From positions 1 to 32,046 of the IMG/VR virus record IMGVR_UViG_3300010368_000055: DNA of 32,046 nt, one strand, 5' to 3'. The notes below the pieces were generated by a model. That model saw only the letters and a list, made by a program, of their open reading frames with translations, ran no database searches and was not told where the DNA came from. This document shows positions 7,083-28,144 of this stretch, in pieces. The number at the start of each line of letters is the position of its first letter. The stretch's first letter is position 1. Origin of the DNA: a virus. The translations under genes and the position numbers were made by a program.

Positions 7083-9006
7083 TCTATTCGGCAGTGCGCT
7101 GCACCACCAGATTAAAAACGAACTGGACCTGATCGATCAGGACTGGAACATTCCACCTGAGTACCCGGACCTAACAGGGTACAAAGAAGTGGCTGTCGAC
7201 TTGGAGACGTATGACCCAAACATAAAAACTTTGGGTCCAGGGTGGGCGCGTAAGGATGGGCACATCATCGGAATTGCGGTGGCAGCGGGGGAATACCAAG
7301 GTTACTTTCCTATCCGTCACGAGAACTCTCACAACCTAGATCCGAAGTTCACGATGCGGTGGCTCAAGAAGCAGTTGTCGGTGCCTGATATGAACGTGAT
7401 CATGCACAATGCAACGTACGATGCAGGCTGGCTAAGAGCCGAGGGCATAGAGATCAAGGGTCGGATTATCGACACGATGATTTCAGGCGCGTTGGTTGAC
7501 GAGAACCGCTGGTCCTTTGGCTTGGACTCGATGGCTCGGGACTTTGCTGCGGTGCGCAAGAACGAGCGGCTGTTGCAAGCGGCTGCTAAGGACTGGGGCG
7601 TTGATCCCAAGGCTGAGATGTACAAACTGCCACCTAAGTATGTGGGCGCGTACGCTGAACAGGACGCCGTAGCGACGCTTAAACTATGGCAGGCTCTGAA
7701 GATCGAGCTCGAGTCCCAGGAACTGTGGCACATCTGGGACATAGAAAACGGACTAATCCCCTGCATGTTGGACATGCGAACCCAAGGGGTGCGGGTAGAT
7801 CTGGACAAAGCCGAGCAGAACAAGAAGTTAATCCGTAAGCAGTCCAAGCTGCTGCGCGGCAAGATCGAAAAGGAAGCTGGCATGGAGGTGGACATCTGGG
7901 CGTCCGCTTCAATCCAGAAGATGTTTGATAAGCTGGGCATGGAGTATCCAAGGACCGAGATAAAAGAAAACGAGGACACGGGTAAGACCACGGGCGGAGC
8001 TCCGTCGTTTACCAAGTCTTGGCTCAACAACCACCCAGCCGAGGTATGCCAGCAGTTAGTTAAGCTGCGTGAGTTCGACAAGGCGGACGCTACGTTTATC
8101 GACAGTATCCTACGGCACGAGCACAACGGACGCATCCATACAGAGCTGCACTCCACGCGTCGAGATGAGGGCGGTACGGTAACGGGCAGGTTCTCTTCGT
8201 CCAACCCAAACCTCCAGCAGATCCCGGCTCGAGATCCAGACATCAAGAAGATGATCCGTGGATTGTTTATTCCAGAGGACGGTATGAAGTGGGGGTCGTT
8301 TGACTACTCGAGCCAAGAGCCGAGGTTGCTGGTACACTTTGCAGCAAGCGTTCCGTCTGCGCTGCGCAGCCATGTGGTTGATAACGTAGTGGAAGAGTTT
8401 AACAGCGGGGACGTCGACCTGCACCAGATGGTTGCGGACCTTGCTGGGATTACCCGCAAGCAAGCTAAGACGGTCAACCTTGGAATCATGTACGGCATGG
8501 GCGTAGCCAAACTGGCGGATCAGTTGGGTATTCCTGCGGGAGACGCCAAGGATCTAATCAAGCGGCACCGCAGTAAGGTTCCGTTTGTTAAGCAGCTCGC
8601 GGACATGGCTACCAAACAGGCGGACAAGAACGGTCAGATCCGCACTCTGCTGGGCCGTAAGTGCAGGTTCCATCTGTGGGAGCCAATGAAGTTCGGAGTA
8701 GGCAAACCCCTACCTCACGAGGAAGCTCTGAAGGAGTACGGCAAGGATATTAAGAGGGCATTCACATACAAGGCGCTCAACCGTTTGATCCAAGGATCAG
8801 CGGCGGACCAAACTAAGAAGGCTATGCTCGATTGCTACAACGAGGGACTTACTCCTATGCTCACTGTTCACGATGAGCTATGCTTTAACATAGAGAGCCA
8901 GGAACAAACGGACAGGATTAAGGAGATCATGGAGACAGGGGTGTCTCTCAAGGTCCCTTCAAAGATAGACGTAGACATCAAGGAAGATTGGGGAGAAATC
9001 GAATGA
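7072..9006 (+). CDS. polA: family A DNA polymerase with 3'-5' exonuclease (PolA, Leu762 type)
   Basis: The phage replicative polymerase, 644 residues. The proofreading exonuclease is intact: Exo I VAVDLETYDP (Asp43, Glu45), Exo II MHNATYDAGW (Asp117), Exo III YAEQDA (Tyr194, Asp198). Polymerase motif A is FDYSSQEPRLL (about 409-419), motif B KTVNLGIMYG (Lys466 to Tyr474) and motif C TVHDEL (about 598-603). There is no 5'-3' exonuclease domain, as in T7 gp5. In motif B the residue equivalent to E. coli Phe762 is Leu470 (codon CTT, 8479-8481). A GTG at 7039 opens the frame earlier, but the ATG at 7072 (MQSNLFG) matches a typical start and gives an 11-base overlap with the preceding gene, so I prefer it. 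The stop overlaps the next start (ATGA). Confidence 0.95.
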   Translation: MQSNLFGSALHHQIKNELDLIDQDWNIPPEYPDLTGYKEVAVDLETYDPNIKTLGPGWARKDGHIIGIAVAAGEYQGYFPIRHENSHNLDPKFTMRWLKKQLSVPDMNVIMHNATYDAGWLRAEGIEIKGRIIDTMISGALVDENRWSFGLDSMARDFAAVRKNERLLQAAAKDWGVDPKAEMYKLPPKYVGAYAEQDAVATLKLWQALKIELESQELWHIWDIENGLIPCMLDMRTQGVRVDLDKAEQNKKLIRKQSKLLRGKIEKEAGMEVDIWASASIQKMFDKLGMEYPRTEIKENEDTGKTTGGAPSFTKSWLNNHPAEVCQQLVKLREFDKADATFIDSILRHEHNGRIHTELHSTRRDEGGTVTGRFSSSNPNLQQIPARDPDIKKMIRGLFIPEDGMKWGSFDYSSQEPRLLVHFAASVPSALRSHVVDNVVEEFNSGDVDLHQMVADLAGITRKQAKTVNLGIMYGMGVAKLADQLGIPAGDAKDLIKRHRSKVPFVKQLADMATKQADKNGQIRTLLGRKCRFHLWEPMKFGVGKPLPHEEALKEYGKDIKRAFTYKALNRLIQGSAADQTKKAMLDCYNEGLTPMLTVHDELCFNIESQEQTDRIKEIMETGVSLKVPSKIDVDIKEDWGEIE

Positions 9007-16558: not shown

Positions 16559-16848
16559 GTTGTCACCGTTACTGCGCCTACTGTACCTGTTCCTGAAGAA
16601 CCGCGAACGTAAGGCTGGTTGGGTTGTGGTACTCTAACAACTCCATCGTGTTGAAACAATGCCCCCGGCGGAAGACCGCTGTCATCACTTTGTAAATTGG
16701 TAATTGTTATCTCTGTCGCTCGAATGTCCCCGGGGTTTTGTACCTGCTCCAAGAATACAGAAAACGAACGAAGCACCTCTGCGAAATACCTTTGCTCGTA
16801 ATCTGCGGGGGGAATAGGAAAGTAAGGACGGGAGAGACGACGAGACAT
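16555..16848 (-). CDS. small conserved virion-region protein (97 aa)
   Basis: A 97-residue protein: N-terminal LSRPYFPIPPADYEQRYFAE, an amphipathic helix FAEVLRSFSVFLEQVQNPG, then a beta-rich half ending GTGTVGAVTVTT. I recall similar proteins beside the tail nozzle-like gene in marine phages, annotated only as hypothetical. It sits in a four-base ATGA overlap with the zinc-ribbon gene and a one-base TAATG overlap with the nozzle-like gene, so a role in the tail or in connecting tail and core is plausible. Confidence 0.6.
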   Translation of the reverse strand: MSRRLSRPYFPIPPADYEQRYFAEVLRSFSVFLEQVQNPGDIRATEITITNLQSDDSGLPPGALFQHDGVVRVPQPNQPYVRGSSGTGTVGAVTVTT

Positions 16849-18767
16849 TACCGCCTCCCATCTGGTCTAAGATCCAACCGGGGAGATCCTAGCCGCCATG
16901 TAACGCCTGTATCGTTAGACTGAATCTTGAACCGCATTTGCCGCCCACGAAGGCGGAAGTAAAGTTGCTCTGTTCGAGAGTCTACAGGAACGGACTGGGT
17001 TTTAACAAACGCATCTGTCTGGCTAACCGAGTACGTCCCGTCAGGGGCGTTCTTTACATCTAACGTTATGTTTACGTCAGGTATAATCGCTGTCGAAGAC
17101 TTGAAGTCTACGTCAGGTATCATCTTGCGAAGCAGCATAAACTGCTCTCCGTCCCCAATATCCATGGGGCTGGACTGTATGTATGCCACGATAGGAGTTA
17201 CGGGGTCCGTGGTCCCATCGTCAAAGCCAATCTCATGCTCGTAGATATAGCCGTCTGTGTTGGCGGCAAACGGAAAGTCAAAGATTCCACGGTCTATCCA
17301 CGCTGTGCGAGCAAACGAGCCGTAATACCAAACCTGTTCGGTGTAGTTGTACACCACATAGCGGTCTACTTCCCCGCTGTTCAGGCTTGGGTAGAACCAC
17401 CAAAGCTCAGAGTGTTCGGTGTTCAAACCCACCGTGATCTTTTCTAGTTCGCCTTCGTTAATGTCGCTAAACACAAAGTCTCGAACCGTACAAGGCAAGC
17501 GCTGAACCGCACCAGAGTAGATGTAAAACTCAGAGCGACCCATCCAAAACACAGTATCGTCCACCGCAATCGCAGCGTTCGGCCCAGCTATCGTGATGTT
17601 TTCTGACAACGCAGTTACACCAAACGTGAACGGTGGCCCAAGGAACTGCATGGCGTACAGAGTAGTGTCCGTAAACACTAGGATCTGCTGACGTGTTTCT
17701 ACGGCAGTAACAATCTCGGAACCCGAGCCCAGTCGCAGTTCGCCAGCCGTGTTCGTACTTGTTGTCTGCCAGTCGGTCAAAGATTCTTGGTCCGAGAACC
17801 GTATAGCCAACGGATCCTGCACTCCGGGGTTGGCTTCCGTGTCACAACCAAAAGCAAGAACGTGCCTATCTCGATCCGAAACCATGACCTGCTTTGCAAC
17901 TGTCGGGACGCTCTGTCCGCCAGCCAAGCTAGTAATGTCCACGGCCCGTGTGCTCACGGTTCCTGTTTGATCCCAATAGTATATTCCGCCGTCTCGCACG
18001 TTCATTAACAAGTCTTCACCAAAGTTGTCGTGCGACCAAAGACGGATTGTGTTTGATACGATTGGATCTGTAGAGGCAGAGCCCCATGTGCCACGGCTCC
18101 ATGTCCCTGCACCCCAACCCGCACCAGACACAGTGATGTCCAGGCCCGTGTTGATCTGGTACGCGCCTACCACCGAGCCGCCTCCGTTGCCTGAGTCGGA
18201 ACCATTCGCAGTGACGTATGTAGGTGTGAGTTGACCGTCTACTGTAATGTCATAGATGGGGGTGTTGGCAGCACGGGCGTCAATCTTATACGAGTTGTTG
18301 TCCACGACCTCTGTAATCTGGTACTCTTGATTTATCACGGCGGCGGTGATGTTGCCGCCTAAAGACGCCGCACCAGAAAACGTGACAAAGTCGTTTACGA
18401 CTGCGCCATGCGAAGCGTCCGTTACTGTAATTGTGTACGACCCATTGGTTGCAGCAAACGTAACATCCCCTGCGGCTGTAGTCAGCCTAATCGGTGTTAT
18501 ATCGTTGTAAAAGCCACCCTCGTCTATGTAATACTTGAGGTGCGTACCAACGCCAATGTATCTGTCTCGGTCTAATGAAACCCACGGATGAAGCGCACGA
18601 CATGTTCCGAGGAAAGAGTTGCTGGAACTCTTCTGCCAACCACCAATCTTTTCCGGAAAGCCTTTTTGGAATCGAACATGATCAATGTCGAACCAGCCTC
18701 CTTGATTAGTGTACGACGTTACCTCGCGGTTTACGCCGGGTCGAAACTGTAGTTTTGAGAGCGCCAT
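16848..18767 (-). CDS. tail nozzle/hub-like protein (T7 gp12 / P22 gp10 type, tentative)
   Basis: A 639-residue beta-rich structural protein. The beginning, LQFRPGVNREVTSYTNQGGW followed by FDIDHVRFQKGFPEKIGGW, recurs in large virion proteins of marine podoviruses annotated as stabilisation or tail tubular proteins. The repeated W/Y-containing strands across the whole length (for example LTDWQTTSTNTAGELRLGSG, VFWMGRSEFYIYSG and WWFYPSLNSGEVDRYVVYNY) suggest a beta-propeller-like body, as in T7 gp12 and P22 gp10. These proteins form the distal tube that seals the packaged DNA. It is followed within three bases by an upstream small virion gene and overlaps its downstream neighbour by one base. 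The assignment is by pattern and context, not by a decisive motif. Confidence 0.6.
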   Translation of the reverse strand: MALSKLQFRPGVNREVTSYTNQGGWFDIDHVRFQKGFPEKIGGWQKSSSNSFLGTCRALHPWVSLDRDRYIGVGTHLKYYIDEGGFYNDITPIRLTTAAGDVTFAATNGSYTITVTDASHGAVVNDFVTFSGAASLGGNITAAVINQEYQITEVVDNNSYKIDARAANTPIYDITVDGQLTPTYVTANGSDSGNGGGSVVGAYQINTGLDITVSGAGWGAGTWSRGTWGSASTDPIVSNTIRLWSHDNFGEDLLMNVRDGGIYYWDQTGTVSTRAVDITSLAGGQSVPTVAKQVMVSDRDRHVLAFGCDTEANPGVQDPLAIRFSDQESLTDWQTTSTNTAGELRLGSGSEIVTAVETRQQILVFTDTTLYAMQFLGPPFTFGVTALSENITIAGPNAAIAVDDTVFWMGRSEFYIYSGAVQRLPCTVRDFVFSDINEGELEKITVGLNTEHSELWWFYPSLNSGEVDRYVVYNYTEQVWYYGSFARTAWIDRGIFDFPFAANTDGYIYEHEIGFDDGTTDPVTPIVAYIQSSPMDIGDGEQFMLLRKMIPDVDFKSSTAIIPDVNITLDVKNAPDGTYSVSQTDAFVKTQSVPVDSRTEQLYFRLRGRQMRFKIQSNDTGVTWRLGSPRLDLRPDGRR

Positions 18768-19880: not shown

Positions 19881-20579
19881 CTATGCAGCTATGATTTCTG
19901 TCCAGATCGTATCGTTGTCTGGTATAATTCTGCCCCAAACTAGCACGTTTCCAGTTCGACCGCTACCCGCAACTCCAGTAACGGAAACCGCGGCGTTACC
20001 CTTGATTGTTGGATCCCCGACCTCTCCCTGTGCAGGGGCCACAGTGCCAATAGGAATGACGCTGTTGATTCGGATACTAGGCAAACCAACCGCCCCTGTT
20101 GCCGCTATGCCCACGACCGAAACTATCTGGTCTGTTTTGACCGTGACGCCGCCAACGTTACCTGTAGCTTCAAGTCCAGTAACAGGAACAGACGCTGCGC
20201 CTTCGATAGTTACTGAGCCGACTCCGCCCGTAGCGGCAATCCCGACAACGGAGATGTTCTGGTCCGTAACTAAAGTAACAGAGCCAACTTGCCCTGTTGC
20301 AGCAACTCCGGAAACAGGAATGCTATGACCTGTCTTAACCGTAACACCGTTTACGGCGGTTGTCGCCTCAAGACCCGTGACCGGAACTTGCGCTTCACCT
20401 GAAATGCTGACAGAGCCAACGCCACCTGTTGCGGCGACTCCGGTTACAGAGATGTTCTGATCCGTAACTAAAGTAACAGAGCCAACGCCACCTGTTCCAA
20501 CTAAACCTGAGACAGGGACAAAGGTAGTAGAATCCTCCGCCGCTAACGGAGCCGTCGTTAGTGGGGAGAATCCAAGCAT
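19881..20579 (-). CDS. beta-repeat virion protein with nine 22-residue repeats (232 aa)
   Basis: After a 20-residue lead (MLGFSPLTTAPLAAEDSTTF) the chain is nine consecutive repeats of about 22 residues. The consensus is [VI]-x-V-[ST]-G-[LV]-x-A-T-G-x-V-G-x-V-T-[VL]-x-T/G-x-x-x. A short unique tail closes it (DNDTIWTEIIAA). Neighbouring copies alternate in a three-repeat super-period: one ending VTLVTDQN, one ending SISGEAQ or TIEGAAS, one ending VTVKTGHS or VTVKTDQI. Such short Val/Gly/Thr repeats suit a beta-solenoid or a stack of beta sandwiches, as in fibre shafts. It lies among fibre genes and probably forms a shaft or decoration. No homologue with known function is recognised. Confidence 0.65.
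   Translation of the reverse strand: MLGFSPLTTAPLAAEDSTTFVPVSGLVGTGGVGSVTLVTDQNISVTGVAATGGVGSVSISGEAQVPVTGLEATTAVNGVTVKTGHSIPVSGVAATGQVGSVTLVTDQNISVVGIAATGGVGSVTIEGAASVPVTGLEATGNVGGVTVKTDQIVSVVGIAATGAVGLPSIRINSVIPIGTVAPAQGEVGDPTIKGNAAVSVTGVAGSGRTGNVLVWGRIIPDNDTIWTEIIAA
19922..20519 (-). repeat. nine tandem 66-bp repeats inside the beta-repeat protein gene
   Basis: Nine consecutive units of about 66 bases encode the 22-residue repeats; one unit is 69 bases. Near-identical DNA in copies one and four, and in copies two and five, shows the array grew by duplication of a three-unit block of about 198 bases, beyond single-unit slippage. Confidence 0.8.
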
Positions 20580-20582
20580 AGT

Positions 20583-20897
20583 TTACGGCTCTCCGTGGTC
20601 GTCGCACCATGCGTTGACCGTGGCGGTTAATTCTTCGTCGGTAGCGGGAACGGAAGAGCCGTCTTCGTCGAGCTCCATGGTCGGGTAGCGGGTGTTGATG
20701 TCCAGTACCCGTGCGATAAGACTAGCACGGTTGAGTTCTACCACCGAATCCGGGACGTAGTAGTCACGGTTCGCCATATCAGGCGACCAGCCAATCAGAG
20801 TGTTGTTGTCGGGGTCCATGAAGTAGCCCCCGTCTTCGACCCATGAAGGGGCGCGCTTGCTACCCATTTCGCGGACAAGCATGTACTCAAGAATCAT
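20583..20897 (-). CDS. unknown small acidic protein (104 aa)
   Basis: A 104-residue acidic protein beginning MILEYMLVREMGSKRAPSWV. I placed the start at ATG 20897, because GGAGG at 20908-20904 is six bases upstream; the frame is open for 27 more codons but those lie inside the previous gene. It contains two aromatic/Asp clusters (GGYFMDPDNNTLIGW and MANRDYYVPDSVVELNRA) and an acidic end (DEDGSSVPATDEEL). It overlaps the upstream coiled-coil gene by 11 bases. I do not recognise it. Position between fibre-type genes suggests a chaperone or a small tail component. Confidence 0.6.
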   Translation of the reverse strand: MILEYMLVREMGSKRAPSWVEDGGYFMDPDNNTLIGWSPDMANRDYYVPDSVVELNRASLIARVLDINTRYPTMELDEDGSSVPATDEELTATVNAWCDDHGEP

Positions 20898-21702
20898 CTT
20901 TTGCCTCCAGTCGGAGCATGTACTCCGGGTTAATGAAATCAGTTTTACCAAACAACCGCTCGGCTGTCTTATCCACATTGGCGCAATACTTGTCGGCCAT
21001 GAGGTCGAGGAAGTCTTCGAGGTCGTTCGAGTGCATTAATTCCGCTTTGGCAATGCGCTCTGCGGTATGCTTCACGTACCCGCTAACCTCGGTGAGTGCC
21101 ACCTGTGGGTGCACACCATACTGCTGTAGGTATTCAATCGTGGCTGTGTTAGCTCGACCGCCATCAAGTAGGTTGCGATACATAAGCTCAAAGCCGCGGC
21201 GCACGTGGTGGCGTTTCTCTTCGCGCTCGTAGGCCTCTTCGTCCCAGTCGTCGATGCCGTTTTTCGCCTTGATGTTCTCGTAAGCGTCAATCATCGTGGC
21301 AATGTCTTTGAACGAGCCGTTGATCTTGGACTCAAGCATGTCGATGCTAAACCGCTTTTGCCGAAGTTCTGCCTGTTCAACAGGGTCGACACTGCCTTCT
21401 AGGTCTTGAATCTCCTTGACCGTCTTGGCATGGTTCACCTGCGCTTCGGCCAGCGCCATCTTGCGCTTCTCAACTTCGGCCATGACCTGACGCATCATGC
21501 GGTAGGGTGATTGCCCGTTCAGCATGGTCAACGTCATCAGAGACAGCGTGTGCTGGCTGTTGTTGCGGTCGAACGCACGGGTCTTCTGCTCCAGCTCGGG
21601 CAGGTATTGGTTCACCTTAGCCACCGCAGCAGCGTTGATCTTGTCTGCGGATACAGCCGGTAGGCTGAAGGTGATTTCGTCAGTCGTTGTAAGTGCAGTC
21701 AT
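20887..21702 (-). CDS. helical/coiled-coil protein of unknown function (271 aa)
   Basis: The product is 271 residues, starting MTALTTTDEITFSLPAVSAD. I placed the start at ATG 21702 because GGAGA lies just upstream inside the end of the kelch-like gene; a longer frame to 21783 is not needed. The chain is almost entirely helical: QVMAEVEKRKMALAEAQVNH forms a coiled coil near 70-120, and the second half contains EKRHHVRRGFELMYRNLLDG and further helices. It has no transmembrane segment and no enzyme motif that I recognise. Being helical and intracellular-looking while lying between adhesin genes, it may be a fibre-assembly chaperone. That is a guess from context. Confidence 0.6.
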   Translation of the reverse strand: MTALTTTDEITFSLPAVSADKINAAAVAKVNQYLPELEQKTRAFDRNNSQHTLSLMTLTMLNGQSPYRMMRQVMAEVEKRKMALAEAQVNHAKTVKEIQDLEGSVDPVEQAELRQKRFSIDMLESKINGSFKDIATMIDAYENIKAKNGIDDWDEEAYEREEKRHHVRRGFELMYRNLLDGGRANTATIEYLQQYGVHPQVALTEVSGYVKHTAERIAKAELMHSNDLEDFLDLMADKYCANVDKTAERLFGKTDFINPEYMLRLEAKDDS

Positions 21703-21703
21703 T

Positions 21704-22780
21704 TTAGTCTCCTGAACATGCGGCGGGACCACGTGGGTTGTTGACCAAGTCACCAAAATCAACAGCATTACCCGTCGTTGCAATAGTTACATAGTCAATT
21801 ATGTTTTGATTAGATGCTCCAAAACCGCCGCCCCACACACCCCTAGTGTTGTTAGCAGTAGAACCAAGCCACGACCTAACAACAGTTAAATCACCAAAAT
21901 CGGCGGCATTTCCCGGTGTTGCAATAGTCACGTAGTCAATCGTGCCTTCTGTCCCGACTCCATCCTTGTATCCGCCACCAAACAGCCCTCTAACCATGTT
22001 AGAACAACCGGCCAAATCTTGTCTACCAACAGTTAAATCACCAAAATCGGTGGCATTTCCCGTTGTTGCGATAGTCACATAGTCAATTATGTTAGAGGAT
22101 GCGGAGGTTCCTCCGGCCCAAAGACCATACGTCGTGTCTGCAACACCCGCAACAAAATCCCTAGCAGCAGTTAAATCACCAAAATCGGCGGCATTTCCCG
22201 TTGTTGCGATAGTCACGTAGTCAATCGTGTTTAGTGGGGAGCCGTCACTACCACCACCGAAAGCCCCTATCGTTCCATTTGAGCACCCAGCTAAACCTCT
22301 TCTTCCAACGGTTAGATCACCAAAATCAACAGAGTTAGATAAAGAGGAAAAGGTGATATACGCTATATCAGTGAGGTAGGGGCCGGTAGCGCCTCCGGCG
22401 AAGAGACCTCTAGCGCCGTTTGAACACGCCCCCCTATAGCCATTGGACGTTGGTAAATCCCCAAAATCCGAAGCATTTCCAGTCGTGCTAATTGTGATGT
22501 ACTGGATTGTGTTGTCGCTTTGACCTCCCCCAAAAACACCTCGATCCCCAAGATTAGTAGGAGGAGGACTAGCACTGACCTCGTACCACTCACCATCAAT
22601 GTACATCTTCAGGGTTTCATCTGAGTCATTCCACCAGATAGCACCGTCAGTTACACCCGTAGGTTCCGTTGTCTGGTCGTAGTATTCACGTTCAGCATAG
22701 CCGTTGCCTGCTTTAAGGTTAGCAGGGAAGTTGACCGCTGCGCCGCCGTTCTCAATTGCATCTGTTTTTAAGGTACTCAT
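21704..22780 (-). CDS. kelch-like repeat tail adhesin, paralogue 1 (358 aa)
   Basis: The third transcribed of three tandem paralogues. An N-terminal module of about 75 residues (YYDQTTEPTGVTDGAIWWND, then YIDGEWYEV and a PPP hinge) resembles a fibre-attachment or chaperone-free linker domain. Six repeats of about 47 residues follow, each with a GxFGGG or GLWAGG turn, an IDYVTIATTGN strand and a DFGDLT turn. Six such blades would close into a beta-propeller displayed at the fibre tip. The chain ends PAACSGD; the codons for Gly-Asp-stop (GGA GAC TAA) also form the ribosome binding site of the downstream gene at 20887-21702. Probable role is receptor binding on the host surface. Propeller closure is inference. 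Confidence 0.75.
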   Translation of the reverse strand: MSTLKTDAIENGGAAVNFPANLKAGNGYAEREYYDQTTEPTGVTDGAIWWNDSDETLKMYIDGEWYEVSASPPPTNLGDRGVFGGGQSDNTIQYITISTTGNASDFGDLPTSNGYRGACSNGARGLFAGGATGPYLTDIAYITFSSLSNSVDFGDLTVGRRGLAGCSNGTIGAFGGGSDGSPLNTIDYVTIATTGNAADFGDLTAARDFVAGVADTTYGLWAGGTSASSNIIDYVTIATTGNATDFGDLTVGRQDLAGCSNMVRGLFGGGYKDGVGTEGTIDYVTIATPGNAADFGDLTVVRSWLGSTANNTRGVWGGGFGASNQNIIDYVTIATTGNAVDFGDLVNNPRGPAACSGD

Positions 22781-24757
22781 AAGTTAGTCTCCCGAACACG
22801 CGCCGTTGTTGCCCCGAGCAACTGTTAAATCTCCGAAATCTGTGGCGTTACCGGTAGATGCAATTGTAACATAGTCTATTACATCTGTTGCAGTGGGGCT
22901 AAAACCCCCGCCAAAAACTCCGTAAGTTCCGTCTGCGCACGCCGCAAAGCCTCCTCGGGCAGAGGTTAAATCTCCAAAGTCTGTAGCGTTTCCGGGTGAA
23001 GCAATAGTCACGTAATCTATAACATTCGTGTATGTAGTAAACCCTGTCAATAATCCGCCGCCAAACAATCCTCTGGTTTCACTTGAACAGGCCCCTAAAC
23101 CACCTCTTGCAACAGTAAGATCACCAAAATCTATAGCGTTACCTGTTGTGGCAACAGTAACGTAATCTATGGTGACGGTTGGAACAGAAAATTCATAACC
23201 ACCCGCAAATAAACCATAGGTGCCATCAGAACAAGATGCTATGGCTTCTCGGGCCGTAGTCATATCACCAAAATCTGTAGCGTTACCCGTGGATGCAATC
23301 GTTATGTAGTCAATAGTATCTTCGGTGGCTGATCCACTCCAACCTCCAGCAAATAAACCATAGGTGCCATCAGAACAAGAGCCTAAATTGTTTCGAGTGA
23401 CGGTCAGATCACCAAAGTCTGTGGCGTTGCCCGTGGATGCAATTGTAACATAGTCTATTACATTCGAGTACGATCCAGAGGCGATACCGCCACCAAATAC
23501 ACCTCGTGTTCCATTGGAACAGGATGCCGGCGTTCTCGCGACGGTTAAATCACCAAAATCAGTAGCGTTTCCGGGCGTCGCAATACTGATATAATCAATT
23601 ACATTACTACTATTTCCACCACTAAATAAGCCTCTAGAACCGAACCACGTTGGAGGGGGTATGAATGTTAACGTCATCCATGTATCGTTCAGATACTGGT
23701 AAACATCACTACCATCATACCAAACCGCACCGTCAGCCGGGGACCCCGGTTCGGAGGCTTGGTCGTAGTACTCGGTCATCGTAACCAAGCTGGTGATGTC
23801 TGTGCCTCCCACGGTAAGCCCTTGGCTGAAGCTCGGTGCCCCGCCAGAAGTGCTTTCGATGTTCGTCGTGTTAAAGGTGCTCATGTGTTATGCCCCCGAA
23901 AATGCGGCTTGGGTGGATGCCGGAGCAAGAAGGTCCCCAAAATCCGTAGCATTACCTAAAGTGTTTATGGTCACGTAATCAATTACGTCGTATTGAGTGG
24001 GCCCATAAGTACCGCCACAAAAAAATCCGTATGTTGCGTCGGAGCTCGCAGCCACTTCGTTGCGTACCACGGTTAAGTCGCCAAAATCCGTCGAGTTAGA
24101 TGGGGTGGCAATAGTTATATAATGAATGGCGTTTGTAGAACCGCTTGAAGTCCCCCCACCAAAAAGCCCTCGAGGGCCGTTTGAACACGACCCGTAACCG
24201 TACCAATTAGCTAACATGTCCCCAAAATCGGTTGCGTTCCCCGGAGTGTTAATAGTGACGTAATCGATCACGTTCGTTGATGCGGAGTTAGCTCCGTTGC
24301 CAAACACCCCATACGTACCGTCGGAACAAGCACGTAAAAAATACCTTGACTCAGTTAGGTCACCGAAGTCCGTTGCGTTTCCTGTCGTAGCAATAGTCAC
24401 GTAAGAAATAGTGACCTCAAAAGTGGTGCTAATACCTCCTCCAAAGAGGCCATACGTTTTATTCGAGCAAGCACCAATATACTGTGTGGCGGACGTCAGG
24501 TCACCAAAATCAGTGGCGTTGCCGGTAGTAGCAATTGTGATGTAGTCAATAATGTCGGACTTAGCGCCGCTGCTCACGCCGCCTCCCCCAAAAAGCCCCC
24601 TAGACCCACTAGAGCATGCCCCTAAGTCTTGTCTACCGACTGTCAGGTCGCCAAAATCAGTGGCGTTGCTCGGCGTCGCGGCAGAAAAGTACTGTATAGT
24701 ATTTAAAACAGTAGGCGTTGCCCCTCCACCAACAACCTGCCTGTCCCCTAAAAAAGC
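21720..24757 (-). repeat. array of 18 kelch-like repeats across three genes
   Basis: Three blocks of six repeats (about 22555-21720, 23650-22800 and 24757-23900) are separated by the N-terminal modules of paralogues 1 and 2. Units are roughly 140-160 bases. Short DNA phrases recur almost exactly (for example the sequence encoding DFGDLT next to the one encoding IDYVTIA), which provides ample substrate for recombination and gene conversion. Confidence 0.8.
22784..23884 (-). CDS. kelch-like repeat tail adhesin, paralogue 2 (366 aa)
   Basis: The middle paralogue of the tandem trio. Its N-terminus differs in the first 30 residues (MSTFNTTNIESTSGGAPSFS) but keeps YYDQASEPGSPADGAVWYDG, a Trp-containing strand and the PPP hinge. 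Six repeats follow with GLFSGG/GVFGGG turns, IDYVTIASTGN strands and NATDFGDLTVAR turns; these are the most regular of the three genes. Two inner repeats share the exact phrase SCSDGTYGLFAGG, so conversion or duplication within the gene is likely. The end is NGACSGD, and GGGAGA at the stop doubles as the ribosome binding site for paralogue 1 four bases downstream. Expected to act at the tail-fibre tip in host attachment. Confidence 0.75.
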   Translation of the reverse strand: MSTFNTTNIESTSGGAPSFSQGLTVGGTDITSLVTMTEYYDQASEPGSPADGAVWYDGSDVYQYLNDTWMTLTFIPPPTWFGSRGLFSGGNSSNVIDYISIATPGNATDFGDLTVARTPASCSNGTRGVFGGGIASGSYSNVIDYVTIASTGNATDFGDLTVTRNNLGSCSDGTYGLFAGGWSGSATEDTIDYITIASTGNATDFGDMTTAREAIASCSDGTYGLFAGGYEFSVPTVTIDYVTVATTGNAIDFGDLTVARGGLGACSSETRGLFGGGLLTGFTTYTNVIDYVTIASPGNATDFGDLTSARGGFAACADGTYGVFGGGFSPTATDVIDYVTIASTGNATDFGDLTVARGNNGACSGD

Positions 24758-24997
24758 AGGCGGCGGGGGAGTATAGTCCACCTCGTACCACGCGTCATTG
24801 ACGTACATCTTAAACAGCTCATTTGCGCTGTCCCACCACAAGGCACCATTGGACGGGGACGACGGCTCAGAGGCCGAGCTTGTGTATTCCATCTGCGGAA
24901 CAGAAGCCAACGCCGTGCCTGCAATCGTAACCCCGTCAGGGATGTTTGGTGCGCCTGTGCCTGCGACGTTAGTAATTGTGTCTACTTTAATCGTCAT
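23888..24997 (-). CDS. kelch-like repeat tail adhesin, paralogue 3 (369 aa)
   Basis: The first transcribed of the trio. I prefer ATG 24997, which overlaps the stop of the preceding gene (ATGA), over the upstream ATG at 25012. The N-terminal part is MTIKVDTITNVAGTGAPNIP, with the fibre-type phrase SASEPSSPSNGALWWDSANE, then a PPPP hinge at about residue 77-80. Six repeats follow (GLFGGG or variants, IDYITIATTGN, NATDFGDLT). It is the most divergent copy: some blades have lost a glycine (GVFGNG, GFFCGG) and the end is QAAFSGA instead of ACSGD. It is coupled to the small fibre-module gene at 24994-25230. A host-attachment adhesin is the likely role. Confidence 0.75.
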   Translation of the reverse strand: MTIKVDTITNVAGTGAPNIPDGVTIAGTALASVPQMEYTSSASEPSSPSNGALWWDSANELFKMYVNDAWYEVDYTPPPPAFLGDRQVVGGGATPTVLNTIQYFSAATPSNATDFGDLTVGRQDLGACSSGSRGLFGGGGVSSGAKSDIIDYITIATTGNATDFGDLTSATQYIGACSNKTYGLFGGGISTTFEVTISYVTIATTGNATDFGDLTESRYFLRACSDGTYGVFGNGANSASTNVIDYVTINTPGNATDFGDMLANWYGYGSCSNGPRGLFGGGTSSGSTNAIHYITIATPSNSTDFGDLTVVRNEVAASSDATYGFFCGGTYGPTQYDVIDYVTINTLGNATDFGDLLAPASTQAAFSGA

Positions 24998-25230
24998 GTT
25001 ACCACCGTCCAAGTTGAGCCAGAAGGTACTGTGACCGTAACCCCACTACCAATGGTTATAGGGCCTGCAGACATCGCGTTCTTGCCTGACGTAATCGTAT
25101 AGTCCGAAGACACCGTTGTCGAGTTTTCGTAAAAGATGCCATCAGATGCGCCTAAAGCGTTTCCATCAATCGTCATGGACCCGCTAGTTGCTGAGATGTC
25201 ATTCGTCTGATGATTGATGGTTAGTGCCAT
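24994..25230 (-). CDS. small tail-fibre module protein (78 aa)
   Basis: A 78-residue beta-rich protein. The second half, YTITSGKNAMSAGPITIGSG followed by VTVTVPSGSTWTVV, is a module I recognise from the C-terminal ends of longer marine phage tail fibres, here as a stand-alone gene. It may be the detached tip of a split fibre or a small capping subunit. It starts one base downstream of the stop of the gene at 25232-25537 and its stop overlaps the first kelch-like gene (ATGA). Confidence 0.65.
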   Translation of the reverse strand: MALTINHQTNDISATSGSMTIDGNALGASDGIFYENSTTVSSDYTITSGKNAMSAGPITIGSGVTVTVPSGSTWTVVT

Positions 25231-25549: not shown

Positions 25550-28144
25550 TTAGGCGTAAGTTACTTCAGATGTGTGGATCGTAGCCACCCACCGAATGTT
25601 TGTAGAGGCTGCACCAGTGACTGTGATCGCCAAGCCACCGTTTGTTGTGTCAGCAGATAAGGCCATGCCCCACGATGGTGTGTTGTCTAGGACAGTTGTC
25701 GCACTGTTGACCAGAACTGTTGTACCAGCAGAACCTTCCCTGCGGATCAATCCCTTTACTTCCCATGCTGCACTTGCAGTGCCAGCGGATGCTTGCTGAC
25801 GGGCTACGATGGTGCCGTGGAAGGCATAGGCTGAGTTGTTGGGGAGGATGATTTGGTTGGTGGTGCTTGCGGCGGCTTTGTCTGAAGTCAAGACTTTTGG
25901 TGTAGCATCAGTCGTGGCTGCGACAACAACCAATATACCTGTTTGCATGTCTGCGTAGTCGCTGAAAAACCCAGAGGATTTGGCAAATTTACCGTAAATT
26001 GATTGTGTGTTTGCCCCGTAACCAATGGATTGCGAATAACTGCCGCTTGCGATGTTCAGATAACCAATCGCAGTAGACCCCAGACCTGACGCCGTTGATG
26101 ACGACCCCATAGCCACAGCCCCGTCAGCTTGGGAAGCTGTTACAGAGTTTCCGATAGCGGTGGCATATGCTGCGGTTGCTTTTGCGAGCCTCCCAATCGC
26201 CACCGAGTTAGCACCAGTAGCGCCATAGGTAGAAGTATTGTTGGCTATAGCTGCTGCAAAGCTGTAACTTCCTGATGCCCGTGATTTACCTAACGCTACA
26301 GCATCACTTCCCGCACCTTTAGCATCATTTCCTAATGCACTTGCGTTTATTGCCGTAGCATCAGCGGATGTACCAATAGCCGTACCGTAGGTGCCTGTAG
26401 CGTCAGTGAAGTTACCAATCGCTATGCCACCTGATGTAGCATTAGCGTCACGCCCTAAAGCAAGAGAAGGAGAACTACCATTAGCTGTAGCGTTGGCGTT
26501 TACACCAATAGCAACGTCATCGTCTGAAGTAGCTGTAGCACTATCGCCTATTGCAATGGCATTTGCACCAGTAGCGCTTGGTTGGGCAGCAGGGGAACTT
26601 TCGTTCGCATCATAAAGAGCAGCGCCAACCGCAGAAAAAGACAAAGCCCCTGAGCCATCTGTAACAAGCGCAGTTCCTGCCGATCCGTCGGCTACCGGAA
26701 GAGTGTAGGCAGAAGATATACGAACAGTTTCGTCTGTGTGACCTAAAACAATTTCGTTTGCTGCCGCTGATGTAATGCCGCTGCCGAGGACGACATTGTT
26801 GTCGTGAGTAACGGTGTTTCCGTTACCTATGCTGTAACTATAACTGCCTGAAACCGAGTGCTGAGTACCAAATGCACCGCCCCCGTTTGTAGAACTAATA
26901 GTGTTTGAAAGACCAAAGGCATACGCATAACCGCCAGTAGACGTCGCATTATTGCTGTACCCAATCGCAGCAGAACCCGCCCCTGTGGCTTGGTTAGTAT
27001 AACCAACGGTTACTGCTTGCGTTCCAGACGCTGTATTTGCTTTACCAATAGCTACAGAATCTGTTCCAGAAGATGTTGCGTTTTGCCCAATGACGATTGA
27101 ACCTGTTCCGCTTGCCGTACTGTTAACACCTAAGCCTATTGTGTAATTTGCACTGGCGACTGTTGCCTCATTGAAAGCCCCTGCATTAATTGCAATCGCC
27201 GCATTGCCCGTAGCCTGCGCGAAGTTGCCAACAGCCGTAGCTGAGTTTCCTGTTGATTGGCTTTCAACACCTATAGAAAGAGCTTCAAAACCACTTGCCG
27301 TAGCAAGTTGACCTATTGCAATAGCAGATGTGTTGGTTGCTTTTGCATCTCGACCGACAGCTAAACTCTGAGCACTTGTTGCGCCGTAACTTGAAGTGTT
27401 TCTAGTGATAACGGCTGCAAAAGCATCTCCAGCATTAGCATAAGCAGTGCCTAACGCTACGGCTGACGTGCCACTACTGCCAATTATAGGAGCGTCTCCC
27501 GCTGCAAAAGATTGTGCCGCACCTGCCTGTGCTTGGTAGCCAAAGGCTAAAGCATTTGCACCTGACGCAACAGCACTGTCGCCTATCGCAATAGCATCAT
27601 CACCAGTAGCTGACGGTTGTGCCGTTACGCTTACTTCATTTGCAGCGTATAGGTCAGCACCAGCCGCTGCCCAATCATAGTCTGAACCATCCCACGACAG
27701 GAACTCTCCAGAAACAGCAGTGCTTGTGTTCAGGTGGGAGTCCACTAGCGGGTTTACATTCCCCGCGTCCGTTACGTCCGCGTTTGCTTCGATACCGTCT
27801 AGCTTAGTCTTGTCGCCATCGACAAAAGGCCCTTCTGACGGAGGCTGCTGAATATCCTGTCCCGCCGCCGTAATAAAGACTTCCGCATTTCCACTTAGAG
27901 AAATTGCCGAGCCGCCACTTGAGCTTTCGCTAGGAGTGCGGGAAAGCGTGGTTCCACTAGCGGTGTAAGTCCCAAGACCGATTTCCCAATTCACGCCGTC
28001 TTGAATCGTGTACCTGACTTGATCGCCGTTACTAACTCCCGCCGCAGAAAAACTTTGGTAGCCTGAAAGAGCAGAACCCAGAGTTATTGTACCAGTACCC
28101 GTGGTACTGGTGGACATTTTTGCCCTGTTCTTTAAAACAGCCAT
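25550..28144 (-). CDS. long tail fibre with YadA-like head repeats (864 aa)
   Basis: An 864-residue fibre. Residues about 1-100 ([20 protein letters not shown] and onwards to FITAAGQD) are a known tail-fibre N-terminal module. Residues about 100-165 hold linkers of the type [20 protein letters not shown]. From about 181 to 718 the chain is built of 14-residue-type repeats A[IV]AIGxxAxAxG, the left-handed parallel beta-roll signature of YadA/Hep_Hag trimeric adhesin heads. A non-repeat spacer near 485-525 divides it into two halves that begin alike ([16 protein letters not shown] and [16 protein letters not shown]), so the head was duplicated. The last 146 residues form a compact domain ([20 protein letters not shown] to SEVTYA), likely trimerisation or receptor binding. 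It should form a trimeric spike. Confidence 0.8.
25991..27604 (-). repeat. YadA/Hep_Hag-type repeat region, internally duplicated
   Basis: About 1.6 kb codes for AIAIG-type beta-roll repeats in two arms separated by a short spacer. Both arms open with QPSATG[10 protein letters not shown], and the phrase NTSxYGATxAxS-[LV]-A-[VI]-GR occurs once in each, which shows a duplication of a long block followed by divergence. Confidence 0.75.

Follow-up and report, generated by a model that had tools for sequence, protein, structure and literature searches.

Tandem genes for predicted six-bladed kelch propellers in an aquatic phage: conserved slots and propellers probably exchanged whole

Why should a phage encode three proteins of the same design side by side, and how do such proteins come to differ between phages? 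The question is raised by a viral DNA stretch of 32,046 nucleotides (nt), the IMG/VR record IMGVR_UViG_3300010368_000055. This whole stretch, here called the window, is a 32 kb record with linear ends and is probably a fragment. It contains three tandem genes, C, B and A, each encoding a short N-terminal module (the stem) followed by six kelch-like repeats (the blades). We conclude that these genes probably constitute an adhesin array with three slots, belonging to an aquatic phage of the podovirus type, in which propeller cassettes are exchanged whole by recombination.

Three tandem genes and their predicted fold

Open reading frames (ORFs) and a hidden Markov model (HMM) of the blade confirmed the layout given in a preliminary description of this DNA: three tandem genes of 358, 366 and 369 residues with 3-base gaps, each with a Trp/Pro module, a PPP hinge and six repeats. 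The genes lie head to tail on the minus strand, and their N-terminal modules, of 79-85 residues, carry Trp/Pro motifs and a PPP(P) hinge ahead of the repeats. Each repeat is about 47 residues long, with the consensus LTVARSGLAACSNSTRGVFGGGSSSSSSTNVIDYVTIATTGNATDFGD. Blade 1 lacks its N-terminal third, five full blades follow, and a C-terminal stub (e.g., LTVARGNNGACSGD) completes blade 1. Because the missing third of blade 1 sits at the C-terminus, this is the arrangement expected if the terminal strands close a propeller.

No Kelch Pfam model gave a match at E<=1 to any of the three window proteins, and a sequence search of the PDB with these proteins found no kelch chain; without a Pfam kelch match, the fold is not revealed by sequence alone. 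An AlphaFold2 run on gene B, using an alignment of 84 relatives (model m520160a49481), gave a mean predicted local distance difference test (pLDDT) score of 91.3, about 97 across the propeller and low only at residues 1-35, with a predicted template modelling score (pTM) of 0.83; the five models were alike. The best solved structures matched by Foldseek were six-bladed kelch domains, such as KLHL12 (E 1e-19). VIA-align of residues 81-366 yielded Z scores of 39.5 to the designed protein SAKe6 (7onc) and 38.0 to Keap1 (1x2j); over the kelch matches, Z ranged from 37 to 39.5 and the root-mean-square deviation was about 2 Å across 270-278 residues. The blade strands of the model are in register, and the predicted ring closes with four-stranded blades in the manner of kelch propellers. 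The glycine doublet that closes strand B is conserved as well (columns 21-22, G 88% and G 95% in 1108 blades). These results predict that each gene encodes a closed six-bladed kelch propeller and, at the level of prediction, back the earlier suggestion of a propeller. The likeness to Keap1, KLHL12 and SAKe6 thus comprises a predicted closed six-bladed fold, two consecutive glycines that end strand B and closure by the N- and C-terminal strands of one blade. The window proteins differ from them in their sequences (about 11-19% identity, with no Pfam kelch match) and in bearing a stem of the phage tail type rather than BTB/BACK domains.

That the ring of six blades is the evolutionary unit is shown by blade counts in the complete repeat ORFs of the sampled loci: among 302 distinct ORFs, six blades occur in 254, 12 in 19, 18 in one and seven in a single ORF, a distribution far from chance. 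The 12-blade proteins (19 distinct) and the single 18-blade protein (L074) are fused propellers found in other lineages (L010, L023, L034, L059, L063, L069 and L074; L numbers designate relatives). They comprise two or three rings per chain and are often encoded by the last gene of a three-gene array.

Variation is unevenly spread over the blade. Among the 1108 blades, columns 3-8 and 23-29 are the most variable (mean entropy about 3.0-3.3 bits) and columns 41-43 and 45-48 the least, with about 1.0 at the C-D turn. By the AlphaFold2 strand positions, the variable columns map onto the D-A and B-C connections, which would lie on one face of the propeller, judged from strand order and kelch topology rather than from a surface calculation. 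In Keap1, the face bearing these loops is the ligand face. The fold alone shows no function, kelch domains have many roles and the array is known here from its genes alone, so the propellers might instead be capsid decorations, or intracellular proteins like the eukaryotic substrate-adaptor kelch domains. We consider this unlikely, given that the array lies between YadA-type fibre and tail hub genes, that the stems have tail-fibre-like Trp/Pro motifs, and that variability is concentrated on one predicted face.

Conserved stems and replaced propellers

We sampled arrays via a conserved downstream gene (the anchor) that the loci share, which avoids bias toward the array's own sequence, and typed their stems with three profile HMMs. 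The stems occur in a stereotyped order: 38 loci read 123 and five read 112233, in which every stem type is doubled in place; other orders are rare. For the N-terminal modules of 27 distinct three-gene arrays, the closest sequence came from the corresponding slot of a different genome in 76 of 81 cases; it was never a paralogue from the module's own genome. For propellers, the same slot of another genome was nearest in 46 of 81 cases and an own-genome paralogue in five, and propeller identity between most genomes was about 44% whatever the slot. The window conforms to this pattern: the N-terminal module of gene C is 45-83% identical to that of gene 1 in relatives and 30-50% identical to those of other slots.

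Close relatives reveal how propellers change. We compared 72 slots in 19 genome pairs whose anchor proteins are >=95% identical. Stem identity was 0.69-0.98; propeller identity was 0.32-0.63 in 60 slots and 0.80-1.00 in the other 12, with none between, and eight of the 19 pairs contained both replaced and retained propellers. In the pair L161/L162, the flanks are 99-100% identical at the nucleotide level, the propellers of genes 1 and 2 are unrelated, and the gene 3 propeller is identical. At base level, the change starts at the hinge just ahead of blade 1 and stops at the gene's stop codon. Rapid point divergence, under which host pressure would make the propellers evolve quickly as ordinary tail tips and cassette exchange would be superfluous, could by itself produce the saturation seen between most genomes. 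An empty gap between 0.65 and 0.80 is, however, not the pattern of gradual divergence, and replaced and near-identical propellers adjoin in genomes that are 99% identical. Moreover, in some cases the propellers of two genomes resemble each other more closely than the stems that carry them: for gene 2 of L122/L129, codon identity is 0.96 in the propeller versus 0.45 in the stem, and the gene 3 propeller of L161/L162 likewise exceeds its stem. We therefore regard point divergence as a very unlikely explanation.

Propellers have also moved between slots. The gene 1 propeller of L145 corresponds to the gene 2 propeller of L148 (92% nt identity, with the last 90 nt to the stop identical) behind entirely different stems, and the junction has about 14 nt in common. 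Similarly, the propeller of L026 gene 5 (slot 3) matches that of L128 gene 4 (slot 2) at 91% nt identity, and the L044 gene 3 propeller matches that of L101 gene 1. Where propellers are alike, all six blades are alike; the exchanged unit in the relatives is the whole propeller. The 140 propellers fall into 126 clusters at 80%, and the pool is large and not saturated.

Such patterns might arise if an assembler had joined the conserved stems of one strain to the propellers of another, and same-slot stems are long and alike enough across strains to mislead it. Arguing against chimeras, the same arrays recur in separate metagenome assemblies (L129/L130/L131, L148/L149/L150, L144/L146, L128/L133 and window/L004), and cross-slot junctions offer only the short common stretch given above. 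A strain chimera would, in any case, still require both propellers behind that stem in the population. We judge an assembly artefact to be highly improbable.

The preliminary description had proposed a different unit of exchange: 18 near-identical blades, with recurring DNA phrases between genes, undergoing shuffling and gene conversion. We found that the 18 window blades have a mean pairwise identity of only 56% at the amino acid (aa) level, the same within and between genes. At shared residues, codon identity between blades of different genes was 0.377, versus 0.374 after codon shuffling, and the longest identical run between genes was 16 nt, versus 17.6 expected from shuffled controls; the recurring phrases are thus at the level of chance, and the codon-shuffle test gives no between-gene signal for shuffling or conversion. 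Only blades of the same gene exceeded chance (0.453 versus 0.373 shuffled, with 0 of 200 shuffles as high), their longest shared run being 32 nt, in blades B3/B4. These data indicate past duplication inside the window genes and no trace of recent exchange between them. Blade-by-blade exchange in the relatives was considered and rejected: propeller pairs >=78% alike have no blade below 0.69, so that none contains a single foreign blade. A comparison of circular blade shifts was uninformative, the best register being 0 in 149 of 304 pairs and the remainder scattered among weak pairs.

A broader form of this idea is that the three genes act as a mutual reservoir for shuffled or converted blades. 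Neighbouring blades within single window genes do have codons in common above chance, and in L005 and L161 propellers in two slots of one genome are 67-71% alike (codon identity 0.62-0.71). For blades, this reading is largely refuted by the missing between-gene signal in the window, the lack of single-blade exchange in relatives and the scarcity of own-genome paralogues as nearest neighbours of propellers, and we hold it to be quite unlikely. The reservoir claim itself stands in part, in that a few propellers occur in different slots across genomes and those of L005 and L161 recur within one genome; it fails for most replacement propellers, which are unlike any other propeller of the same genome.

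A diversity-generating retroelement or an invertase could also underlie the variation, these being known dedicated diversifiers of phage receptor-binding proteins. Neither the window nor any of 19 related records of up to 260 kb gave an RVT_1 match (several are fragments; template repeats were not searched), and no resolvase (serine recombinase) was found in these 20 records (flanking inverted repeats were not searched). A tyrosine recombinase or integrase was present in only two of the 20. The changes, furthermore, are whole-domain replacements and not point changes. Such an element is thus an exceedingly improbable source, and the earlier proposal of diversification without a reverse transcriptase agrees with what we see: none was detected in these records, several of them fragments, while the propellers of the relatives vary.

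Our preferred reading is that the stem would fix each protein at one of three distinct positions on the virion, and that the closed propeller, as its position and analogy suggest, probably attaches to some structure on the host surface. The type and order of the stems are kept, as 1-2-3 or, when doubled, 1-1-2-2-3-3, and the unit from hinge to stop codon is replaced in one piece, probably through recombination with other phages, or, in rarer cases, transferred to a different slot. An economical account of the swapping would be ordinary homologous recombination when phages co-infect a cell: crossovers within the conserved stems that flank a propeller (the stem of its own gene and the stem of the following gene) would replace exactly the intervening propeller, and cross-slot moves would need shorter homology. 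We infer that the window's own phage diversifies likewise.

Several points weigh against this reading. The strong cross-slot cases are few (three), the genome pairs share members, so that the 72 slots are not independent, and all relatives are metagenome assemblies. Some relatives have deviant gene orders (112323 in L137; also L155 and L129), and the stems are variable too. Lastly, the window's only very close relative (L004/L084) shows an unchanged array: its three genes are the same, with 1 difference over 3294 nt, so that the phage of the window has itself given no sign of switching.

Two further observations concern these comparisons. Between the L122 genes at 7623 and 8747 and the L129 genes at 8841 and 7717, neighbouring stems match best crosswise (95% and 92% nt) and one propeller matches straight, which implies that stems too are exchangeable between neighbours. 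Between the window and L004, 11 of 19 differences fall within 33 bp (20844-20876), in the ORF at 20583-20978 and the end of the anchor gene; this cluster may mark a very short tract of recombination, or it may be due to the closeness of the contig end.

Gene neighbourhood and distribution

The genes around the array (Table 1) support its assignment, by sequence likeness, to a tail and adhesin neighbourhood. Upstream are the YadA-repeat, fibre-like protein and two SU10-adaptor-like proteins; downstream are the helical anchor protein, small tail-type genes, the P22-gp10-like hub, an ejection-type protein and a 1335-residue virion protein, followed by replication genes on the opposite strand. The hub protein is 41% identical to the 'stabilization protein' of phage DSL-LC04 and 33% to HTVC027P, and its proximity would place the array in a podovirus-type tail module. 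The gene layout resembles that of Pelagibacter phage HTVC027P, Roseobacter phage CRP-901 and phage DSL-LC04, whose equivalent region holds fibre or lectin genes.

Table 1. Positions of the array genes, their parts and neighbouring genes in the window
Feature	Coordinates	Strand	Size or extent	Basis
Gene C, slot 1, first transcribed	23888..24997	-	369 aa from ATG; 374 from TTG start	ORF and blade HMM
Gene B, slot 2	22784..23884	-	366 aa	ORF and blade HMM; AlphaFold2 model
Gene A, slot 3	21704..22780	-	358 aa	ORF and blade HMM; slot-3 N-terminal match in relatives
Slot-1 N-terminal module (MTIKVDTI...PSSPSNGALWWD...PPPP)	24743..24997	-	gene C aa 1-85	border at first blade-HMM hit
Slot-2 N-terminal module	23642..23884	-	gene B aa 1-81	border at first blade-HMM hit
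Slot-3 N-terminal module	22544..22780	-	gene A aa 1-79	border at first blade-HMM hit
Six-blade kelch-like propellers		-	gene C aa 86-369, gene B aa 82-366, gene A aa 80-358	
Gene next to gene C on its upstream side, overlapping the gene C start	24994..25230	-	78 aa	
Trimeric-adhesin-like protein, YadA head repeats	25550..28144	-	864 aa	PF05658 E=2.3e-33, 12 stretches
Conserved downstream neighbour (anchor), predicted all-helical	20887..21705	-	about 272 aa	mean column identity 75% in 39 relatives
Repeat protein near tail hub	19881-20579	-	232 aa	
Tail hub / P22-gp10-like stabilization protein	16848..18767	-	639 aa	phrog_3287 E=3.9e-73

The start codon of the anchor gene is uncertain, and the gene may overlap the end of gene A. 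A model of the anchor protein (pLDDT 83) gave no significant fold match (top E 0.4), and a comparison with 50,697 phage records gave no match. The N-terminus of the 78-aa protein (MALTINHQTNDIS) resembles a stem (MSLTFNHQTNDIS) that is fused to propellers in L044 and L101, a likeness which suggests that stems and heads can be split or fused. In the 864-aa protein, the YadA head repeat stretches form two blocks; it is possibly a fibre standing beside the propellers. The 232-aa protein has repeats of about 20-25 residues (VPVTGLEATGNVGGVTVKT / SVVGIAATGGVGSVTI) and no PHROG or Pfam match. Genes B and C both end in conserved Ser-Gly codons (TCGGGAGAC TAA and TCGGGGGCA TAA) that occupy the expected ribosome-binding site of the next gene, so that a swapped propeller may carry its neighbour's start signal.

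The repeat family is abundant in aquatic virus contigs: a pattern scan of virus contigs gave at least 599 matches, at least 595 of which encode a relative. It is nearly absent from prokaryotes (7 loci in 84,980 genomes), and a plasmid search for it gave no match. The propeller is homologous to PHROG 19111 (E 6e-26), and the only named phage matched was Synechococcus phage S-SKS1 (gene B, 30%); these homologous repeat proteins are annotated only as of unknown function. A search of isolates with a synthetic three-blade consensus gave no match, probably because the consensus was masked as repetitive.

Among the 55 loci with a run uncut by the record edge, the commonest complete array was three adjacent genes (34 loci), an underestimate, as some loci scored as having one or two genes hold frame-broken copies. 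Genomes with three and with six genes can be close (anchor 96-98% aa identity), and doubling or loss is thus recent. Copy-number variation in related phages, a point raised by the preliminary description, is accordingly present, along with different propellers in given slots. Two contigs of 148 and 260 kb, L115 and L116, also contain the anchor gene (70% aa identity) and kelch genes and are far larger than the relatives of 55-65 kb; the array module may be shared with large phages, or these contigs may be composite.

Relation to known systems and significance

The combination of a conserved stem and an exchangeable head is already familiar in receptor-binding proteins, though as a rule from only a handful of cultured phages of enterobacteria. 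In the tail-spike complex (TSP1-TSP4) of Ackermannviridae, adjacent genes encode conserved N-terminal linking domains and variable receptor domains, and whole tsp genes are experimentally exchangeable, altering host recognition (PMC11414711). Our arrays share with this system adjacent genes, slot-specific conserved N-termini and exchangeable C-termini, a likeness of genetic pattern only. They appear to differ in their short stems, which match no Pfam or PHROG family (no direct comparison with XD/TD domains was made), whereas the Ackermannviridae proteins use gp10-like XD/TD linking domains. They differ also in their six-bladed kelch propellers and the stereotyped order 1-2-3 or 1-1-2-2-3-3, which is known from genes and does not imply complex formation. 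The metaviromic islands described in marine phages are likewise hypervariable host-recognition modules: genes for tail fibres and binding domains differ from one nearly identical phage to the next, and the N-termini of the proteins are conserved where the C-termini vary (PMC3909814). That work reports under-recruiting genes and regions, and a text search of it gave no mention of tandem or paralogous arrays. A literature search, with most subscription journals outside its scope, returned neither a description of kelch propellers arrayed in tandem under a slot code nor a paper combining phage, kelch, propeller and receptor binding.

By analogy with such systems, a virion location, receptor binding and a role for the three slots may be proposed. 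More tentatively, and in our view doubtfully, the array could serve combinatorial display: three distinct sockets on one tail, or their doubled set, would each show a different propeller, and recombination preferring the hinge and the stop codon would circulate propellers between phages and sockets. If true, these would be multi-receptor phages that re-assort their specificities.

The same principle is seen here with a different predicted head fold, the kelch propeller, and with a strict slot code in which each slot may be doubled; there are, moreover, natural pairs of genomes in which one or two heads have been exchanged. With the slots as a fixed frame and the propellers as the variable part, receptor turnover in uncultured phages becomes testable from sequence, in a protein family that is widespread in aquatic viruses and still annotated as unknown. 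For these phages, propeller swapping is a likely way to keep pace with changing bacterial surfaces.

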